From: Oligoflexia bacterium
GTDB lineage: Bacteria; Bdellovibrionota; UBA1018; CAIPTA01
Assembly: GCA_023954355.1 (NCBI GenBank)
Contig: JAMLID010000010.1
Span: 1 to 64,000, forward strand
Reading direction: 5' to 3'
Length of the DNA: 64,000 bases
The position numbers were made by a program, and so were the translations under genes. The notes below the pieces were generated by a model, which ran no database searches, was not told the origin of the DNA, and saw only the letters and a list, made by a program, of their open reading frames with translations. Shown here piece by piece: positions 6,054 to 62,249 of the stretch (position 1 is the stretch's first letter; every line of letters begins with the position of its first letter).

Positions 6054-6083
6054 AAAGTAGCTCTTCTTTAGAAGAGCTACTTT
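6054..6083. terminator. bidirectional rho-independent terminator
   Basis: A near-perfect hairpin lies between two convergent genes. The left arm AAAGTAGCTCTTC (6054-6066) pairs with GAAGAGCTACTTT (6071-6083), with A-rich and T-rich flanks. It follows the FKBP gene and overlaps the stop codon of the TonB receptor on the other strand, so it can serve both. Confidence 0.85.
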
Positions 6084-7836
6084 AAAGAAATCGACTCTCT
6101 AAAGTCAGAAGCACGCTTCGTCCAAGTGTGCCGTATCCGCTAATTTCTTGGTACTTTCTATTGAGTAGATTTTTTGTTTCTAATTCAAGTCTCCAGTTGG
6201 GAGAAAGTCTCCAGTTTGCTGATTGATCTAGGGTAATGTAACTAGGCATTTTTTGAATTGTAAATAAAGTAGAGTGATAATCTGTTCTTGAACCCTGATA
6301 TGAAAGTTGTGTCTTGGTGTCTAGATTAGAAAAAAGATGAAATTTGATTCCTGTTTTTCCATAAAGTCTTGGTCTTCTGATTAAATTTATTTTTGTGTTT
6401 AAATCTCTAGCGTGCATATAAGTTAAAGATGTTTCATTAGAGATAAGTGAGCTTAGTTTAAAGGCTGCTGCGAGCTCTATTCCAATGGCACCAGACCTGC
6501 CTATATTTTGATATTTAGAGAGCAAAAAGTCGTAATCAATTAGATTGGTTGTTTTATTTGAAAATGCAGAAATTTTTATTTTTCCATAGGGTACTGCTAG
6601 ATGTAGTCCAAGCTCATGACCTATGAATTTTTCTGATCTCAGTCTCTGGTTTCCGTAGTGAGAATAAAGTTGATAAAGAGTAGGTATTTTTTGATTAACT
6701 TTTGATAGAGCAAAAAGCTCGATATTTTTTTCTAAGAAAAATCGTGAAAGTTGGGCGCTTGAACTAATATATTGGTTCGAGTTTGTAAAATCGCCTCTAA
6801 GGGAAAGGCTAGGCTTCCAATTCTTTGCTTCTAAAGAAAGCAAAGAATATAGGGCGATTAGATTTTCTTTAAAACGAGAATTAAAATCAGTTGATTTCCC
6901 TTCATTATAGGTAAGGTAGACGCCGCTTTGATTTTGAAAATAAGTGAAGTTTTTTTGAATTTTTGTAGAAGCACTATAGGTTTTAGATGAGAAGTTAGCG
7001 TTGCCTAAAGTATTATCAAATCGATCTCTAAAGTCTGTACGCAATCCGAATTGAATCTCTTCAAAAAAATTTGTGCTAGTCTCTAGTGTGCTACCAAATT
7101 GCAATAATTTTGTCCGTGTATATGTTCCCAAGCTGTCTCCACGGAACCCTCCGCGACTGTCTGTATCAGCTTTTGAATAGGTAGCAGAGCCAGAAATTTT
7201 CAAGAGCCACTTAGGGTTTAATTCGTAGTAACGGTTTGTACCGAAAGTAATAGTTTTGTATGGATCAAGCTCTAAGTTTTCTTCTCTTTGGTCAGCAGCA
7301 GAAATTTGTTTACTCTCATGAGCCGAGAGAAAAAAGCCATCATGTGCAACAGATACAGACCTATAAAGAGGATATCCCAAAGTAATAGATGAATTTAGAG
7401 CAGAATTTTTTTTAGTGTTAAGATTAAGAATGGTGCCAATAGAGCTTTTTTCAAAAGTTAAAGACTCTGGTCCGTTGATTTGAGTGATCGAATCAAGCTC
7501 TATAAGAGGAAACGAACTAAAATCTACTGCTCCAGAAGTACTTATAGGGTCATTCATTAGTAAATCGTTCAGGTAGATTAAGGTGTCTCCTGATTTAGAG
7601 CCTCGATAAAAAAGTGATGCTGGTTGTCCGAGTCCACCAGATTTTTGAATATCTATACTAGGTAAATTTTTGACCTGATCTAAATAAATTTTTCCATTCT
7701 GCTTTCTAGAATCCCATTGATAAGTTGTGCTCTCATCTATGGATTCACCCTCTACGATGATTGGTTCTAAGGTATTTGTAGTGGACCAACAGTGGTTTGG
7801 AATAAGAAAAATAAGTAAATAAAGGTATAAAAGCAT
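6082..7836 (-). CDS. TonB-dependent outer membrane receptor, probably for cobalamin/corrinoids
   Basis: A 584-residue outer membrane protein with signal peptide, plug and beta-barrel. The TonB-box region is near residues 25-30 (EPIIVEG). The plug shows FYRGSKSGDTLIYLND and INGPESLTFEKSSIGTILNL, the usual GPxS..G.GG-like segment in a degenerate form. The C-terminus ends in an aromatic-rich strand (LESRFL). Similarity in layout is to BtuB, and the cobalamin riboswitch directly upstream makes vitamin B12 or a relative the likely ligand. The start at 7836 is preceded by CAGGAG at good spacing; the ATG at 7872 lies inside the riboswitch and is not used. It is shorter than many TonB receptors but typical for the BtuB group. 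Confidence 0.88.
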   Translation of the reverse strand: MLLYLYLLIFLIPNHCWSTTNTLEPIIVEGESIDESTTYQWDSRKQNGKIYLDQVKNLPSIDIQKSGGLGQPASLFYRGSKSGDTLIYLNDLLMNDPISTSGAVDFSSFPLIELDSITQINGPESLTFEKSSIGTILNLNTKKNSALNSSITLGYPLYRSVSVAHDGFFLSAHESKQISAADQREENLELDPYKTITFGTNRYYELNPKWLLKISGSATYSKADTDSRGGFRGDSLGTYTRTKLLQFGSTLETSTNFFEEIQFGLRTDFRDRFDNTLGNANFSSKTYSASTKIQKNFTYFQNQSGVYLTYNEGKSTDFNSRFKENLIALYSLLSLEAKNWKPSLSLRGDFTNSNQYISSSAQLSRFFLEKNIELFALSKVNQKIPTLYQLYSHYGNQRLRSEKFIGHELGLHLAVPYGKIKISAFSNKTTNLIDYDFLLSKYQNIGRSGAIGIELAAAFKLSSLISNETSLTYMHARDLNTKINLIRRPRLYGKTGIKFHLFSNLDTKTQLSYQGSRTDYHSTLFTIQKMPSYITLDQSANWRLSPNWRLELETKNLLNRKYQEISGYGTLGRSVLLTLESRFL

Positions 7837-7859
7837 AAAACTCCTGCACGGGACAATTT

Positions 7860-7970
7860 CTTCAAAGAGCATTCGGGCTTACATTACGTTTAGTGATGCA
7901 TACCGTTGCGGCACAGCCCCGGATTTTCACCGGAGTTCCCTCTTTGAAGGCATATGTTGTTAACACCACA
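7860..7970 (-). promoter_or_regulatory. cobalamin riboswitch
   Basis: Read on the minus strand, this segment carries the conserved core of the adenosylcobalamin riboswitch: GGGAACTCCGGTGAAAATCC followed by GGGGCTGTGCCGCAACGGTA. The 3' part (GTAAGCCCGAATG) fits the B12-box region. It ends about 25 bases before the receptor's ATG, so it probably controls translation by hiding the CAGGAG site. CTTCAAAG upstream of the core can pair with CTTTGAAG at its 3' end, closing the element or acting as the switching helix. Confidence 0.9.
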
Positions 7971-59398: not shown

Positions 59399-59704
59399 AT
59401 GTCACTCGCAAGAAAAAGAAAGCCGCAGGTTTCCTTGAAGAAGGAAAGCACGGTAATGATTCGCACAGCTCCGCAGGATAAAGTTCTCATTGAGAAAGCC
59501 GCCGATCATTTGGGGCTTACGGTGAGTTCCTTCATGTTGCAAAACTCAATTCGCGCCGCTCGTAAGGAGTTGTCGGAAGTTGAACGCACAAGCCTAACGG
59601 AACGTGATGCTCATGTGTTCTTTGCTGCTTTGACAAATCCTCCAGCTCCGAACGAAGCACTCAAAAAGGCTTTCAAGGACTACGCGAAGCAGTCCAGAAA
59701 GTAA
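59399..59704 (+). CDS. DUF1778 antitoxin (TacA-like)
   Basis: A 101-residue antitoxin of the DUF1778 family, with an N-terminal ribbon-helix-helix DNA-binding part (STVMIRTAPQDKVLIEKAADHLGLTVSSFML) and a C-terminal toxin-neutralising helix (DAHVFFAALTNPPAPNEALKKAFKDY). It binds the GNAT toxin of the next gene and represses the operon through the palindrome upstream. GAGG lies eight bases before the ATG. The stop is nine bases before the toxin start, the usual spacing of the pair. Confidence 0.92.
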   Translation: MSLARKRKPQVSLKKESTVMIRTAPQDKVLIEKAADHLGLTVSSFMLQNSIRAARKELSEVERTSLTERDAHVFFAALTNPPAPNEALKKAFKDYAKQSRK

Positions 59705-59713
59705 TTTGTCTTT

Positions 59714-60214
59714 GTGAGCAACTTTGAATTTCAGATCCTAGACAAGTCATTTGATCGTGCGCCGTTTGACTGCGGCTCGCCTGAGCTAAACGATTTTCTG
59801 AAAGCGAAAGCCCGTCAGAACCAAACGGCGAATTTCAATAGAACCTTCGTAGCCATTCAGTCAGGCGATAAGGCCAAGCGTGTTCTTGGCTTTTACAGTC
59901 TCAGCATGGGCGAGGTGGATTTATCTTCGCTTCCTGAAGAAAAACAGAAGAAGCTCCCTAAGCATCCCGTACCAGTCGCCCGAATGGGCCGACTGGCGGT
60001 TGATAAGTCAACCAAGGGGCAAGGCTTAGGAAAGCTCCTTTTAGTCGATGCGATGAAGCGGGTTCAATCTGCCTCGACTGATGTTGGCGTTTACGCGCTT
60101 CTGGTCGATGCAAAGGATGATTCCGCAAAAGCCTTCTATAAGAAGTATGGGTTCATTGAACTAACCGATGAACCCATGACCTTGTTTTTACCTTTGGCTT
60201 CATTCCCGCAATAA
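59714..60214 (+). CDS. GNAT toxin (TacT-like)
   Basis: A 166-residue GNAT acetyltransferase of the TacT/AtaT group. The acetyl-CoA binding segment is VARMGRLAVDKSTKGQGLGKLLL, and the C-terminal catalytic tyrosine lies in AFYKKYGFIEL. Toxins of this group acetylate the amino group of aminoacyl-tRNAs and block translation. The start is a GTG at 59714, nine bases after the antitoxin stop. The stop is directly against the stop of a broken minus-strand gene. Confidence 0.9.
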   Translation: MSNFEFQILDKSFDRAPFDCGSPELNDFLKAKARQNQTANFNRTFVAIQSGDKAKRVLGFYSLSMGEVDLSSLPEEKQKKLPKHPVPVARMGRLAVDKSTKGQGLGKLLLVDAMKRVQSASTDVGVYALLVDAKDDSAKAFYKKYGFIELTDEPMTLFLPLASFPQ

Positions 60215-60496
60215 TTAGGCAACGGAAGGCAAGGAATCAGTCTTTTTAGAAGACTTTTTCTTTTCCTTATCATCGACACCATAATGAGCGCGGATAGCTT
60301 TTCTCAATTCTTCAGGAAGATCGGCGTCCGTTCGTAGAATGGAGCCAAGCATCTTCTTTTCGTCAAAGTGTGCGGTCCTAAGATTCTTCACGTCGGTTTC
60401 TGAAAAGAACTTACTGACGTTCTGGAAAATATAGTTGGCAATAGACTCGGAATTCTGCCTATGATACTTTAAGAAAAGTATTCGACCTTTGGCATT
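60215..60496 (-). pseudogene. 3' part of an unknown gene, probably frameshifted
   Basis: The minus strand is open for 93 codons and ends in a charged tail (KKKSSKKTD). The sequence (RILFLKYHRQNSESIANYIF, NVSKFFSETDVKNLRTAHF, EKKMLGSILRTDADLPEELR) looks like a real protein, not a shadow. No ATG, GTG or TTG is near the frame's beginning. An ATG at 60492 in another frame runs eight codons (MPKVEYFS) into a stop; one added base would join it to the body. That suggests a frameshifted small gene. No family recognised. Confidence 0.5.
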
Positions 60497-60506
60497 TTAT
60501 TGTGCC

Positions 60507-60547
60507 CCTGACGAGGAGAACCGCACCAGGATTCGCAAAGACGGCTC
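60507..60547 (+). promoter_or_regulatory. guanidine-III (ykkC-III) riboswitch, copy 1
   Basis: The 41 bases match the guanidine-III consensus: CCTGACGAGG, then CCGCACCAGG, then CAAAGACGGCTC. CCTG (60507) pairs with CAGG (60527) for P1; GAxCCG pairs with CGGCTC to make the pseudoknot. The GACGAGG and AAAGACGG blocks are the ligand-binding parts of the known class. It ends 14 bases before the LysE ATG, so ligand would free the start region. The second copy, 1.36 kb downstream, differs by about eight bases. Confidence 0.87.
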
Positions 60548-60561
60548 TTAGATTGGGTCGT

Positions 60562-61197
60562 ATGTCGTTACTCAGTATTTTCATTCAAGGCTTTGTCCTC
60601 CAAGCCAGTTTGATCTTGGCGCTTGGCGCTCAGAATATTTTTGTTCTGAACTCCGGACTTCGGAGGCAAAGGCACCTTCTGGTTGCTTTTGTGTCCTCAA
60701 TTTGTGACACGCTTCTTATTTTTGTAGGAGTGCTTGGCGTTGCAACGATCTTCGTACAAATCCCCATTCTGAAGATTGGACTTGGAGTCGTCGGCGTCGC
60801 TTTTCTGTTCTTTTACGGACTGTTGAAGTTAAAAGAAGCCAGGGACGGAGTGGAAATCTCGCTTGATTCAAAACAGACCACGACGATCCGGCAAACCGTT
60901 CTTACAGCTCTTGGATTCAGCCTTCTTAATCCTCATGTTTATCTTGATACGGTCGTACTGGTTGGCGGTTACTCATCAAAGTTTAGCCAAATTACCGAGA
61001 GATTTTATTTTGGCGCTGGGGCCTCGGCGTTCTCAACAATCTGGTTCTTTGGTCTTGCGTTGCTGGCTTCATGGGGAAGCAAACTCCTCGGCAGCCCCAA
61101 AGCAATGCGTATCGTTTCTTTGGTTTCGGGATTGATCCTGGTGATCCTAGCAATAAAACTCGGAAGCGATGTTGTTGGCTGGATTCGCGGTCAGTAA
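60562..61197 (+). CDS. LysE-family exporter under a guanidine-III riboswitch
   Basis: A 211-residue inner membrane exporter with six hydrophobic segments. It opens with the LysE/ArgO signature (LILALGAQNIFVLNSGLRR), has a GLLKLKEA loop and the conserved GFSLLNPHVYLDTV helix 4 motif. LysE proteins pump basic amino acids; ArgO exports arginine and canavanine. The guanidine-III element directly upstream implies that guanidine induces it, so guanidine or a guanidino compound may be its substrate. The ATG at 60562 follows the riboswitch; a longer start at 60502 would run through the RNA element and was rejected. It is followed eight bases later by the PaiB-like gene. Confidence 0.9.
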   Translation: MSLLSIFIQGFVLQASLILALGAQNIFVLNSGLRRQRHLLVAFVSSICDTLLIFVGVLGVATIFVQIPILKIGLGVVGVAFLFFYGLLKLKEARDGVEISLDSKQTTTIRQTVLTALGFSLLNPHVYLDTVVLVGGYSSKFSQITERFYFGAGASAFSTIWFFGLALLASWGSKLLGSPKAMRIVSLVSGLILVILAIKLGSDVVGWIRGQ

Positions 61198-61205
61198 GGA
61201 GATTT

Positions 61206-61832
61206 ATGTACCGTCCAAAAGTTTTTGCAGAAGATCGCATTGAAGTTCTCCACGATTTTATCAAAGAGCACCCTCTGGCTACAGTTGTTACGGCGGGGCC
61301 AAACGGCATTTTGGCAAACCTCATTCCAGTCAGCCTTCATGCCGTCGGCGAAAAAGGAACATTGAGGCTTCATCTTGCCAAAATGAATCTTCAGGCCGAC
61401 AGACTCAAAGTTGGAGATGAAGTGCTCATGGTTTTCCATGGGCCGCAAAACTATGTTACTCCGAATTTTTACCCCTCTAAAAAAGTTCACGGAAAAGTCG
61501 TCCCGACCTGGAATTACTCACTTGTTCAGGTTCGTGGAAAGGCAAGCGTAATCGACGATCCAAAGTGGGTACTTGAGCAGATCAATGATTTGACTGAGGC
61601 GATGGAGAAAACCAACGAAACTCCGTGGAAAGTCAGTGATGCGCCGGAAGACTACATTCTTTCGCAACTGAAAGTCATTGTTGGGGTCGAAGTACCGATT
61701 GAAACGATCGAGGGCAAATTCAAAGTCAGTCAGAATCAATCGAAAGAAAATAACGAAGGTGTTGAGCAAGGATTCTTGAAGCAAGGAGATCATCAAATGG
61801 CGTCCTTGGTCGCTGAACGTCGGCGTTCTTGA
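61206..61832 (+). CDS. PaiB-like FMN-binding split-barrel protein
   Basis: A 208-residue protein of the PaiB family (FMN-binding, pyridoxamine-phosphate-oxidase-like split barrel). It has the family start YRPKVFAEDRIEVLHDFIK, the PLATVVTAGPNGILANLIPV strand pair, the VLMVFHGPQNYVTPNFYPSK segment and PTWNYSLVQVRGKA, followed by the ILEQIND-like helix. PaiB in Bacillus is linked to sporulation and protease regulation; homologues often sit beside transporters and their chemistry is unclear. AAGGAG lies five bases before the ATG. It shares the riboswitch-controlled operon with the LysE exporter, so it may act on or sense a guanidine-related compound. Confidence 0.88.
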   Translation: MYRPKVFAEDRIEVLHDFIKEHPLATVVTAGPNGILANLIPVSLHAVGEKGTLRLHLAKMNLQADRLKVGDEVLMVFHGPQNYVTPNFYPSKKVHGKVVPTWNYSLVQVRGKASVIDDPKWVLEQINDLTEAMEKTNETPWKVSDAPEDYILSQLKVIVGVEVPIETIEGKFKVSQNQSKENNEGVEQGFLKQGDHQMASLVAERRRS

Positions 61833-61861
61833 TTTAATAAAAAACTTTGGCAATAAAGTCA

Positions 61862-61902
61862 CCTGACGAGGCGAACCGTACCAGGCTCCGAAAAGACGGC
61901 TC
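61862..61902 (+). promoter_or_regulatory. guanidine-III (ykkC-III) riboswitch, copy 2
   Basis: A 41-base element, CCTGACGAGGCGAACCGTACC onward (read in two parts: CCTGACGAGG and CCGTACCAGG, then AAAAGACGGCTC). It matches the guanidine-III consensus closely, including GACGAGG, CCGTACC and AAGACGG. P1 is CCTG (61862) with CAGG (61882); the pseudoknot pairs GAACCGT with ACGGCTC, with one A-C mismatch. It is followed at once by AAGGAGAG and the Gdx ATG, so it probably acts on translation. Confidence 0.9.
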
Positions 61903-61919
61903 TAAAGAAGGAGAGTCGT

Positions 61920-62249
61920 ATGTCTGTCACTTGGGCTTGGGTTATTCTTGGTATCGCTGGTCTTTTAGAAGTCTGTTGGGCAATCGGATTAAAATACACT
62001 GAAGGGTTTACGAAACTCGGCCCCAGCATATTTACGCTGACGACGCTTGCCGCGAGTATGTACCTGCTCGCCAGGGCGAGCCAAGTTCTTCCAATTGGAA
62101 CAGCCTATGGCGTATGGGTGGGAATCGGAGCGATGGGAGCAGCGATTTTAGGAATTTTTCTCTTTAACGAAGGAGCATCACCGCTTCGTCTGTTCTTTTT
62201 GGGATTATTGCTGGTGGCGATCATTGGCTTAAAGCTCACGTCCAGATAA
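61920..62249 (+). CDS. gdx: SMR-family guanidinium exporter (Gdx/SugE)
   Basis: A 109-residue small multidrug resistance protein with four helices. The essential Glu is E17 ([17 protein letters not shown]), and the SugE/Gdx pattern is clear ([19 protein letters not shown], then [10 protein letters not shown]). Gdx proteins exchange guanidinium for protons and are the classic target of guanidine riboswitches, which fits the element just upstream. GGAGA precedes the ATG by six bases. The gene ends at a perfect palindromic terminator. Confidence 0.94.

Follow-up and report, generated by a model that had tools for sequence, protein, structure and literature searches.

A candidate guanidine-responsive operon with two guanidine-III elements and LysE, PaiB-like and Gdx genes in an Oligoflexia bacterium

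The window analysed here is a stretch of 64,000 nucleotides from an Oligoflexia bacterium (contig JAMLID010000010.1 of assembly GCA_023954355.1). At 60486-62249 it holds a compact cassette in the order element 1, LysE, PaiB-like gene, element 2 and Gdx, the two elements being RNA leaders of guanidine-III type. The features are listed below; G256 denotes a genome from another family of the same phylum.

60486-60550, + strand: element 1, a guanidine-III-type aptamer before LysE (RF01763, 30.5 bits; core 60507-60547), with a P0-like hairpin upstream
60524, + strand: position 18 of the core, which has C where all other parsed elements have U, opposite A35 (60541), numbered as in PMC5696562
60541-60561, + strand: alternative hairpin of element 1, in which the 3' strand of P2, ACGGCUC (60541-60547), can base-pair with GGGUCGU (60555-60561) and so cover the ribosome-binding region
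60562-61197, + strand: LysE/ArgO-type basic amino acid exporter, 211 aa (PF01810, 4.2e-35; 79% identical to that of G256)
61206-61832, + strand: PaiB-like protein, 208 aa (PF04299, 5.9e-59; predicted haem site H56, N61, T101, K173)
61839-61905, + strand: element 2, a canonical guanidine-III aptamer before Gdx (RF01763, 47.3 bits; core 61862-61902)
61896-61919, + strand: alternative hairpin of element 2 over the Shine-Dalgarno sequence, 61896-61903 pairing with 61912-61919 (-10.8 kcal/mol, z -4.1)
61920-62249, + strand: Gdx/SugE-type SMR guanidine exporter, 109 aa (NF008512, 131.4 bits; PDB 6wk5)

The later parts of the cassette are closely packed, with 8 nt between LysE and the PaiB-like gene, 6 nt between the latter and element 2, and 14 nt between element 2 and Gdx. 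These gaps suggest that everything from element 1 through Gdx is carried on one transcript. A promoter scan of the locus gave no signal above chance and is uninformative on co-transcription, and PADLOC returned no defence-system match. Directly upstream of the cassette, adjoining open reading frames at 59399-60214 (+) encode a TacA1-like antitoxin and a GNAT acetyltransferase, which are likely to form a TacAT-type toxin-antitoxin pair.

Element 2 is an ordinary member of its family, matching RF01763 above the gathering score (E 1e-6 in the window). Element 1 is more divergent. An earlier note on this DNA, made from the sequence alone, had placed a 41-nt guanidine-III core before LysE, and its coordinates proved exact, with 14 nt separating the end of the core from the ATG at 60562. 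The covariance model agrees, matching 60486-60550, though its score lies below the gathering score of 36, which is why an Rfam scan at default settings is without element 1. With permissive filters and all Rfam families, a search of 2.1 kb gave E 5.8e-4, and a search with RF01763 alone over the whole 3.15-Mb genome gave E 2.0e-4; in this genome-wide search elements 1 and 2 were the only two matches. The syntenic element before the orthologous LysE of G256 scores 45.1 bits, above gathering. Judged by its sequence, element 1 is a guanidine-III homologue, a chance match being ruled out by this synteny together with conservation of the core.

The nucleotides that contact the ligand, C6, G7 and G17, are kept in element 1 (CCUGACGAGG...CCG in the sequence) and P1 is complete. 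P2 carries C18.A35, which is unique to this element, and A14.C39. The A14.C39 mismatch is common to the full-scoring element 2 and to related elements of the phylum, so it is no argument against element 1. Compared with the guanidine-III (ykkC-III) family as a whole, element 1 has the same core sequence, P1, ligand contacts and distance to the start codon, and a hairpin able to sequester the Shine-Dalgarno sequence. It differs in its sub-threshold score, in C18 and in a LysE-PaiB target in place of Gdx, and the locus differs in having two copies in one operon.

Guanidine-III has been published as a translational ON switch (PMC12186494). Both leaders of the cassette point to the same kind of switch, since their P2 3' strands are able to base-pair with the Shine-Dalgarno region; we infer the ON direction here. 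Without ligand, the P2 3' strand of each aptamer would pair with the Shine-Dalgarno region; with ligand bound, this strand would be locked in the pseudoknot and the ribosome site freed. The alternative hairpin of element 1 has a stability of -8.9 kcal/mol (z -2.9) and also appears in the fold of the whole leader, and that of element 1 in G256 has a z of -4.3. A hairpin of this kind is predicted for the majority of 23 leaders, whose mean z is -3.4, with little sign of it in L007, L128, L135 and element 2 of G256. When the arms were kept and their partners swapped, own arm pairs beat permuted ones, only 6 of 5000 permutations being as good. The whole-leader fold of element 1 is no more stable than shuffles (z -0.35), a value from nested folding, which cannot score a pseudoknot; because the folding program is blind in this way, the stability test was confined to the alternative hairpin. 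The gene behind element 1 has a weak Shine-Dalgarno sequence.

Element 1 departs from the consensus at position 18. In guanidine-III, G7 and G17 hold the ligand, which stacks on C6, the next pair of P2 is U18-A35, and all core nucleotides are more than 97% conserved (Huang et al. 2017; PMC5696562). U18 is present in 94 of 95 distinct parsed elements and C in element 1 only, a count that excludes two non-U18 actinobacterial regex false hits and about 20 unparsed loci. C18 may weaken ligand binding, retune the switch or be a sign of its decay, or it may be an error in the sequence, and guanidine binding by element 1 in spite of it is not certain. U18C offers a natural variant for studying how far the guanidine-III core tolerates change.

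It has to be considered whether the window's element 1 is in decay, having once been a guanidine-III switch as in G256 and being now non-responsive through C18 and the weak Shine-Dalgarno sequence, leaving only Gdx under guanidine control. Its score of 30.5 bits against 45.1 for the G256 orthologue, the uniqueness of C18 among the 95 parsed elements, and the fact that none of the other three cassette copies diverges as far all point that way. However, P1 and the nucleotides C6, G7 and G17 are all in place, the alternative hairpin has been kept despite a sequence change from GAGUC to GGGUC, lysE is still conserved at the protein level, and a one-base sequencing error could also have produced C18. 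On balance we consider decay rather unlikely. It is improbable, too, that the substitution, lying beside the ligand layer, has changed the specificity of element 1, retuning it to a guanidine derivative such as hydroxyguanidine or methylguanidine, or to a lower affinity, and so staging the response together with element 2. Such a change would be in keeping with the position of U18-A35 next to G17-C36, G17 being a ligand-binding nucleotide, and with the side opening of the guanidine-III pocket, which accepts methyl-, amino- and ethylguanidine (PMC5696562). There is also a precedent in a guanidine-IV variant with altered ligand-site positions and different genes (PMC9788692). Like element 1, this Gd4v motif combines an altered conserved position with unusual target genes, but it belongs to another riboswitch class and is known from many examples, whereas there is one divergent copy here. 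Against retuning, position 18 is not a direct ligand contact, the change is a single instance, and the G256 orthologue has a consensus core before the same genes, which argues that these genes need no changed ligand.

The second cassette emerged when RF01763 was run against 369 genomes of the phylum, with E 0.01 or better taken as a match; 38 genomes had one. In G256, two elements lie 1.36 kb apart in the same five-part cassette, and both score above the cut-off (45.1 and 46.1 bits). The LysE, PaiB and Gdx proteins of the two cassettes are 79%, 76% and 81% identical, respectively. In the adjacent genes 4-fold sites are 29-35% identical between the window and G256, which is near saturation (dN 0.15-0.18), yet the cores are identical at 36 of 41 positions in element 1 and 39 of 41 in element 2. 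With synonymous sites saturated and the element 1 core so well kept, the switch before LysE has been retained by selection. The two cassette LysE proteins are sisters in the tree (support 90/88), and the link between riboswitch and LysE is found in these two genomes only. Just upstream of the G256 cassette there is an open reading frame for a tyrosine-recombinase-like integrase (L136:528-1496, -), a position that would fit movement of the whole cassette in one piece.

These comparisons also bear on whether the leader before LysE is simply a passenger, a Gdx leader duplicated before neighbouring genes that have no need of guanidine control. Element 1 of G256 and element 2 of the window are identical at 40 of 41 positions, and a CGAAAA block is common to the cassette copies, unlike the other elements of the phylum, so both leaders look like duplicates. 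Neutral leaders, however, do not survive between lineages whose synonymous sites are saturated, as the pre-LysE copy has done in these two, and the three genes are found clustered in genomes that have no guanidine-III leader as well. A passenger origin without function is accordingly decidedly improbable, and guanidine-linked control of lysE-paiB is, to our minds, probable.

The target genes are unusual for the class. The other parsed guanidine-III elements of the phylum precede Gdx or Gdx-like SMR frames. Of 385 genomes in an actinobacterial sample, 169 have an RF01763 match, and at 80 of the 93 loci that were read Gdx lies within about 1.5-2.6 kb; LysE or PaiB follows guanidine-III at none of the 93. 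The earlier note's view that the gene set is unusual is borne out by this count and by the conservation of the arrangement in G256. Its contrast between LysE-PaiB and the Gdx-type targets does not stand, since Gdx with its own guanidine-III element follows in the same operon; element 2 and Gdx, directly after PaiB, had gone unmentioned. LysE relatives in named genomes had neither PaiB nor Gdx in the flanks examined (80 loci), and a scan of the four best named-genome LysE loci found no guanidine-III. In the UBA6144, Cloacimonadota and Halobacteriovoraceae relatives, whole-genome searches with RF01763 gave one match, before Gdx only. A plasmid-borne version of the cassette was considered and set aside, as plasmid LysE matches were all below 60% identity, the best being 48% among the matches listed. 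LysE under a guanidine switch was not found in the literature covered, most subscription journals and the original guanidine-III paper lying outside that coverage. Here the riboswitch class is known and the gene set new, and the aptamer is present twice, with slight divergence.

The assignment of the first gene to the LysE family is secure (121.4 bits to PF01810, gathering 25.6). The best models are the L-lysine exporter and ArgO, which on sequence grounds places it in the Lys/Arg exporter subfamily. It falls below the cut-offs of both equivalogs (169.6 against 213.65 for TIGR00948, and 153 against 298 for NF006801), so that the models leave its cargo unassigned. ArgO exports arginine and canavanine (PMC5648196). 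LysE relatives in three genomes of the phylum, G096, G064 and G177, lie divergent to ArgP/LysG-type regulators. In G096, LysE, Gdx and PaiB form one apparent operon (L148:492-2100 / L173) that lacks guanidine-III and has an ArgP-like regulator divergent to it; the cassette functions are seen there under a protein regulator. LysE-PaiB occurs with ArgP in G177, and a guanidine-III element with Gdx beside ArgP/LysE in G064. An ArgP-like protein is absent from the genome of the window and from G256 at E 1e-15. The cassette therefore shares its exporter subfamily with the ArgP-ArgO and LysG-LysE systems, and differs in that, in these two genomes, the position of the regulator is taken by an RNA switch. 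Four close LysE orthologues (G289, G264, G015 and G008), 76-79% identical, have no ArgP, riboswitch, PaiB or Gdx nearby. No other riboswitches were found before the closest LysE orthologues, where the matches were to tRNA and tmRNA only; in G015 a tmRNA gene lies directly before LysE (L155:1090-1441, -).

It had been suggested in the earlier note that LysE exports guanidine or a guanidino compound. The second part of this fares better than the first: arginine, lysine or canavanine is the likelier cargo, given the Lys/Arg subfamily, the ArgP/LysG neighbours of its relatives and the presence of Gdx in the operon. That LysE is itself a second guanidine pump would fit its guanidine-III control and its adjacency to Gdx. 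Nevertheless, the operon already contains a dedicated Gdx with its own guanidine-III element, which makes LysE unlikely to be needed for guanidine export; LysE belongs to the Lys/Arg exporter subfamily, and its relatives stand beside regulators of the ArgP/LysG type. We regard a pump for free guanidine as most improbable.

Gdx passes the SugE equivalog NF008512 (131.4 bits, cut-off 126). Its best PDB match is 6wk5 (E 4.7e-31), which we take to be the guanidine exporter Gdx-Clo. The PaiB-like protein is confirmed as a member of its family (FMN_bind_2, PF04299; 199 bits, gathering 22.4). Its PDB relatives are the haem-bound PaiB 9vyc, PaiB 2ol5, NohD 9oqx, named in the PDB as an N-hydroxylamine dehydratase, and piperazate synthase 9ebk. 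Piperazate synthase uses an axial His, Asn, Thr and Lys for haem binding and catalysis, and PaiB has been reported to bind haem without forming N-N bonds (PMC13274692). H56, N61, T101 and K173 of the PaiB-like protein correspond to the piperazate synthase residues and are invariant in six relatives. With these residues kept and haem-bound relatives solved, the description of the product as an FMN protein is probably misleading. Of the two roles put forward previously, sensing or transforming a guanidino compound, an FMN sensor is the less likely and a haem enzyme the more likely, haem N-O chemistry being favoured by the conserved site. By sequence the protein belongs to the fold family of PaiB, NohD and piperazate synthase, with none of the four haem-site and catalytic residues missing. 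It differs from them in its setting, an operon of exporters headed by a guanidine switch.

How these activities might fit together is suggested by earlier work on guanidine switches. Hydroxyguanidine triggers a guanidine-I switch, and a canavanyl-tRNA deacylase, CtdA, is found under guanidine switches; the authors of that work propose that guanidine signals the presence of canavanine (PMC10018355). An operon in which guanidine-III would control Gdx, an exporter of basic amino acids and a haem protein from a family acting on N-O compounds fits this idea. Here, as with CtdA, a guanidine switch would precede a gene directed against canavanine and not guanidine; unlike CtdA, a tRNA-editing enzyme behind a class I or IV switch, the genes are a LysE/ArgO-type exporter and a PaiB-like protein. 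No standalone canavanyl-tRNA deacylase was found in the genome, in which the sole B3/4 domain lies in an 818-aa, PheT-sized frame. The deacylase was likewise discarded as a candidate in the other genomes searched, each having one B3/4 domain in a frame of 810-827 aa, as expected of PheT.

In the reading we prefer, guanidine would leave the cell through Gdx, and removal of a basic or guanidino amino acid, arginine, canavanine or one like them, would fall to the LysE-type exporter; the substrate of the PaiB-like haem protein would be an N-O compound, for example N-hydroxyguanidine. Guanidine would then tell the cell of guanidino antimetabolites, canavanine among them. The gene set suggests that cells read guanidine as a warning of toxic compounds resembling arginine. 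The regulation is well supported, and the substrates of LysE and the PaiB-like protein are inferred. Taken with these transporter and enzyme roles, the view of 60486-62249 as a guanidine-responsive operon with two guanidine-III translational switches is one that we slightly favour, and a role in handling canavanine or hydroxyguanidine is a tentative suggestion that we hold with less confidence. A fuller scheme of dual-riboswitch defence may be drawn, in which guanidine or hydroxyguanidine released from canavanine-type antimetabolites would induce, from one transcript, export of the amino acid by LysE/ArgO, haem-dependent conversion of N-hydroxyguanidine by the PaiB-like protein and export of guanidine by Gdx, with element 1 retuned via C18 relative to element 2; in that complete form it is distinctly unlikely. 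Guanidine switches have mostly been read as controls of guanidine detoxification, and the cassette lends support to the newer idea that guanidine stands proxy for guanidino compounds of other kinds. It also suggests a substrate class for PaiB-like proteins, and it is a small operon open to testing.

Elsewhere in the window, an AdoCbl-II riboswitch (RF01689, 36.8 bits) at 7859-7950 (-) lies just before a 596-aa open reading frame at 6082-7872 (-) that resembles TonB-dependent receptors of BtuB type, which is an ordinary arrangement.
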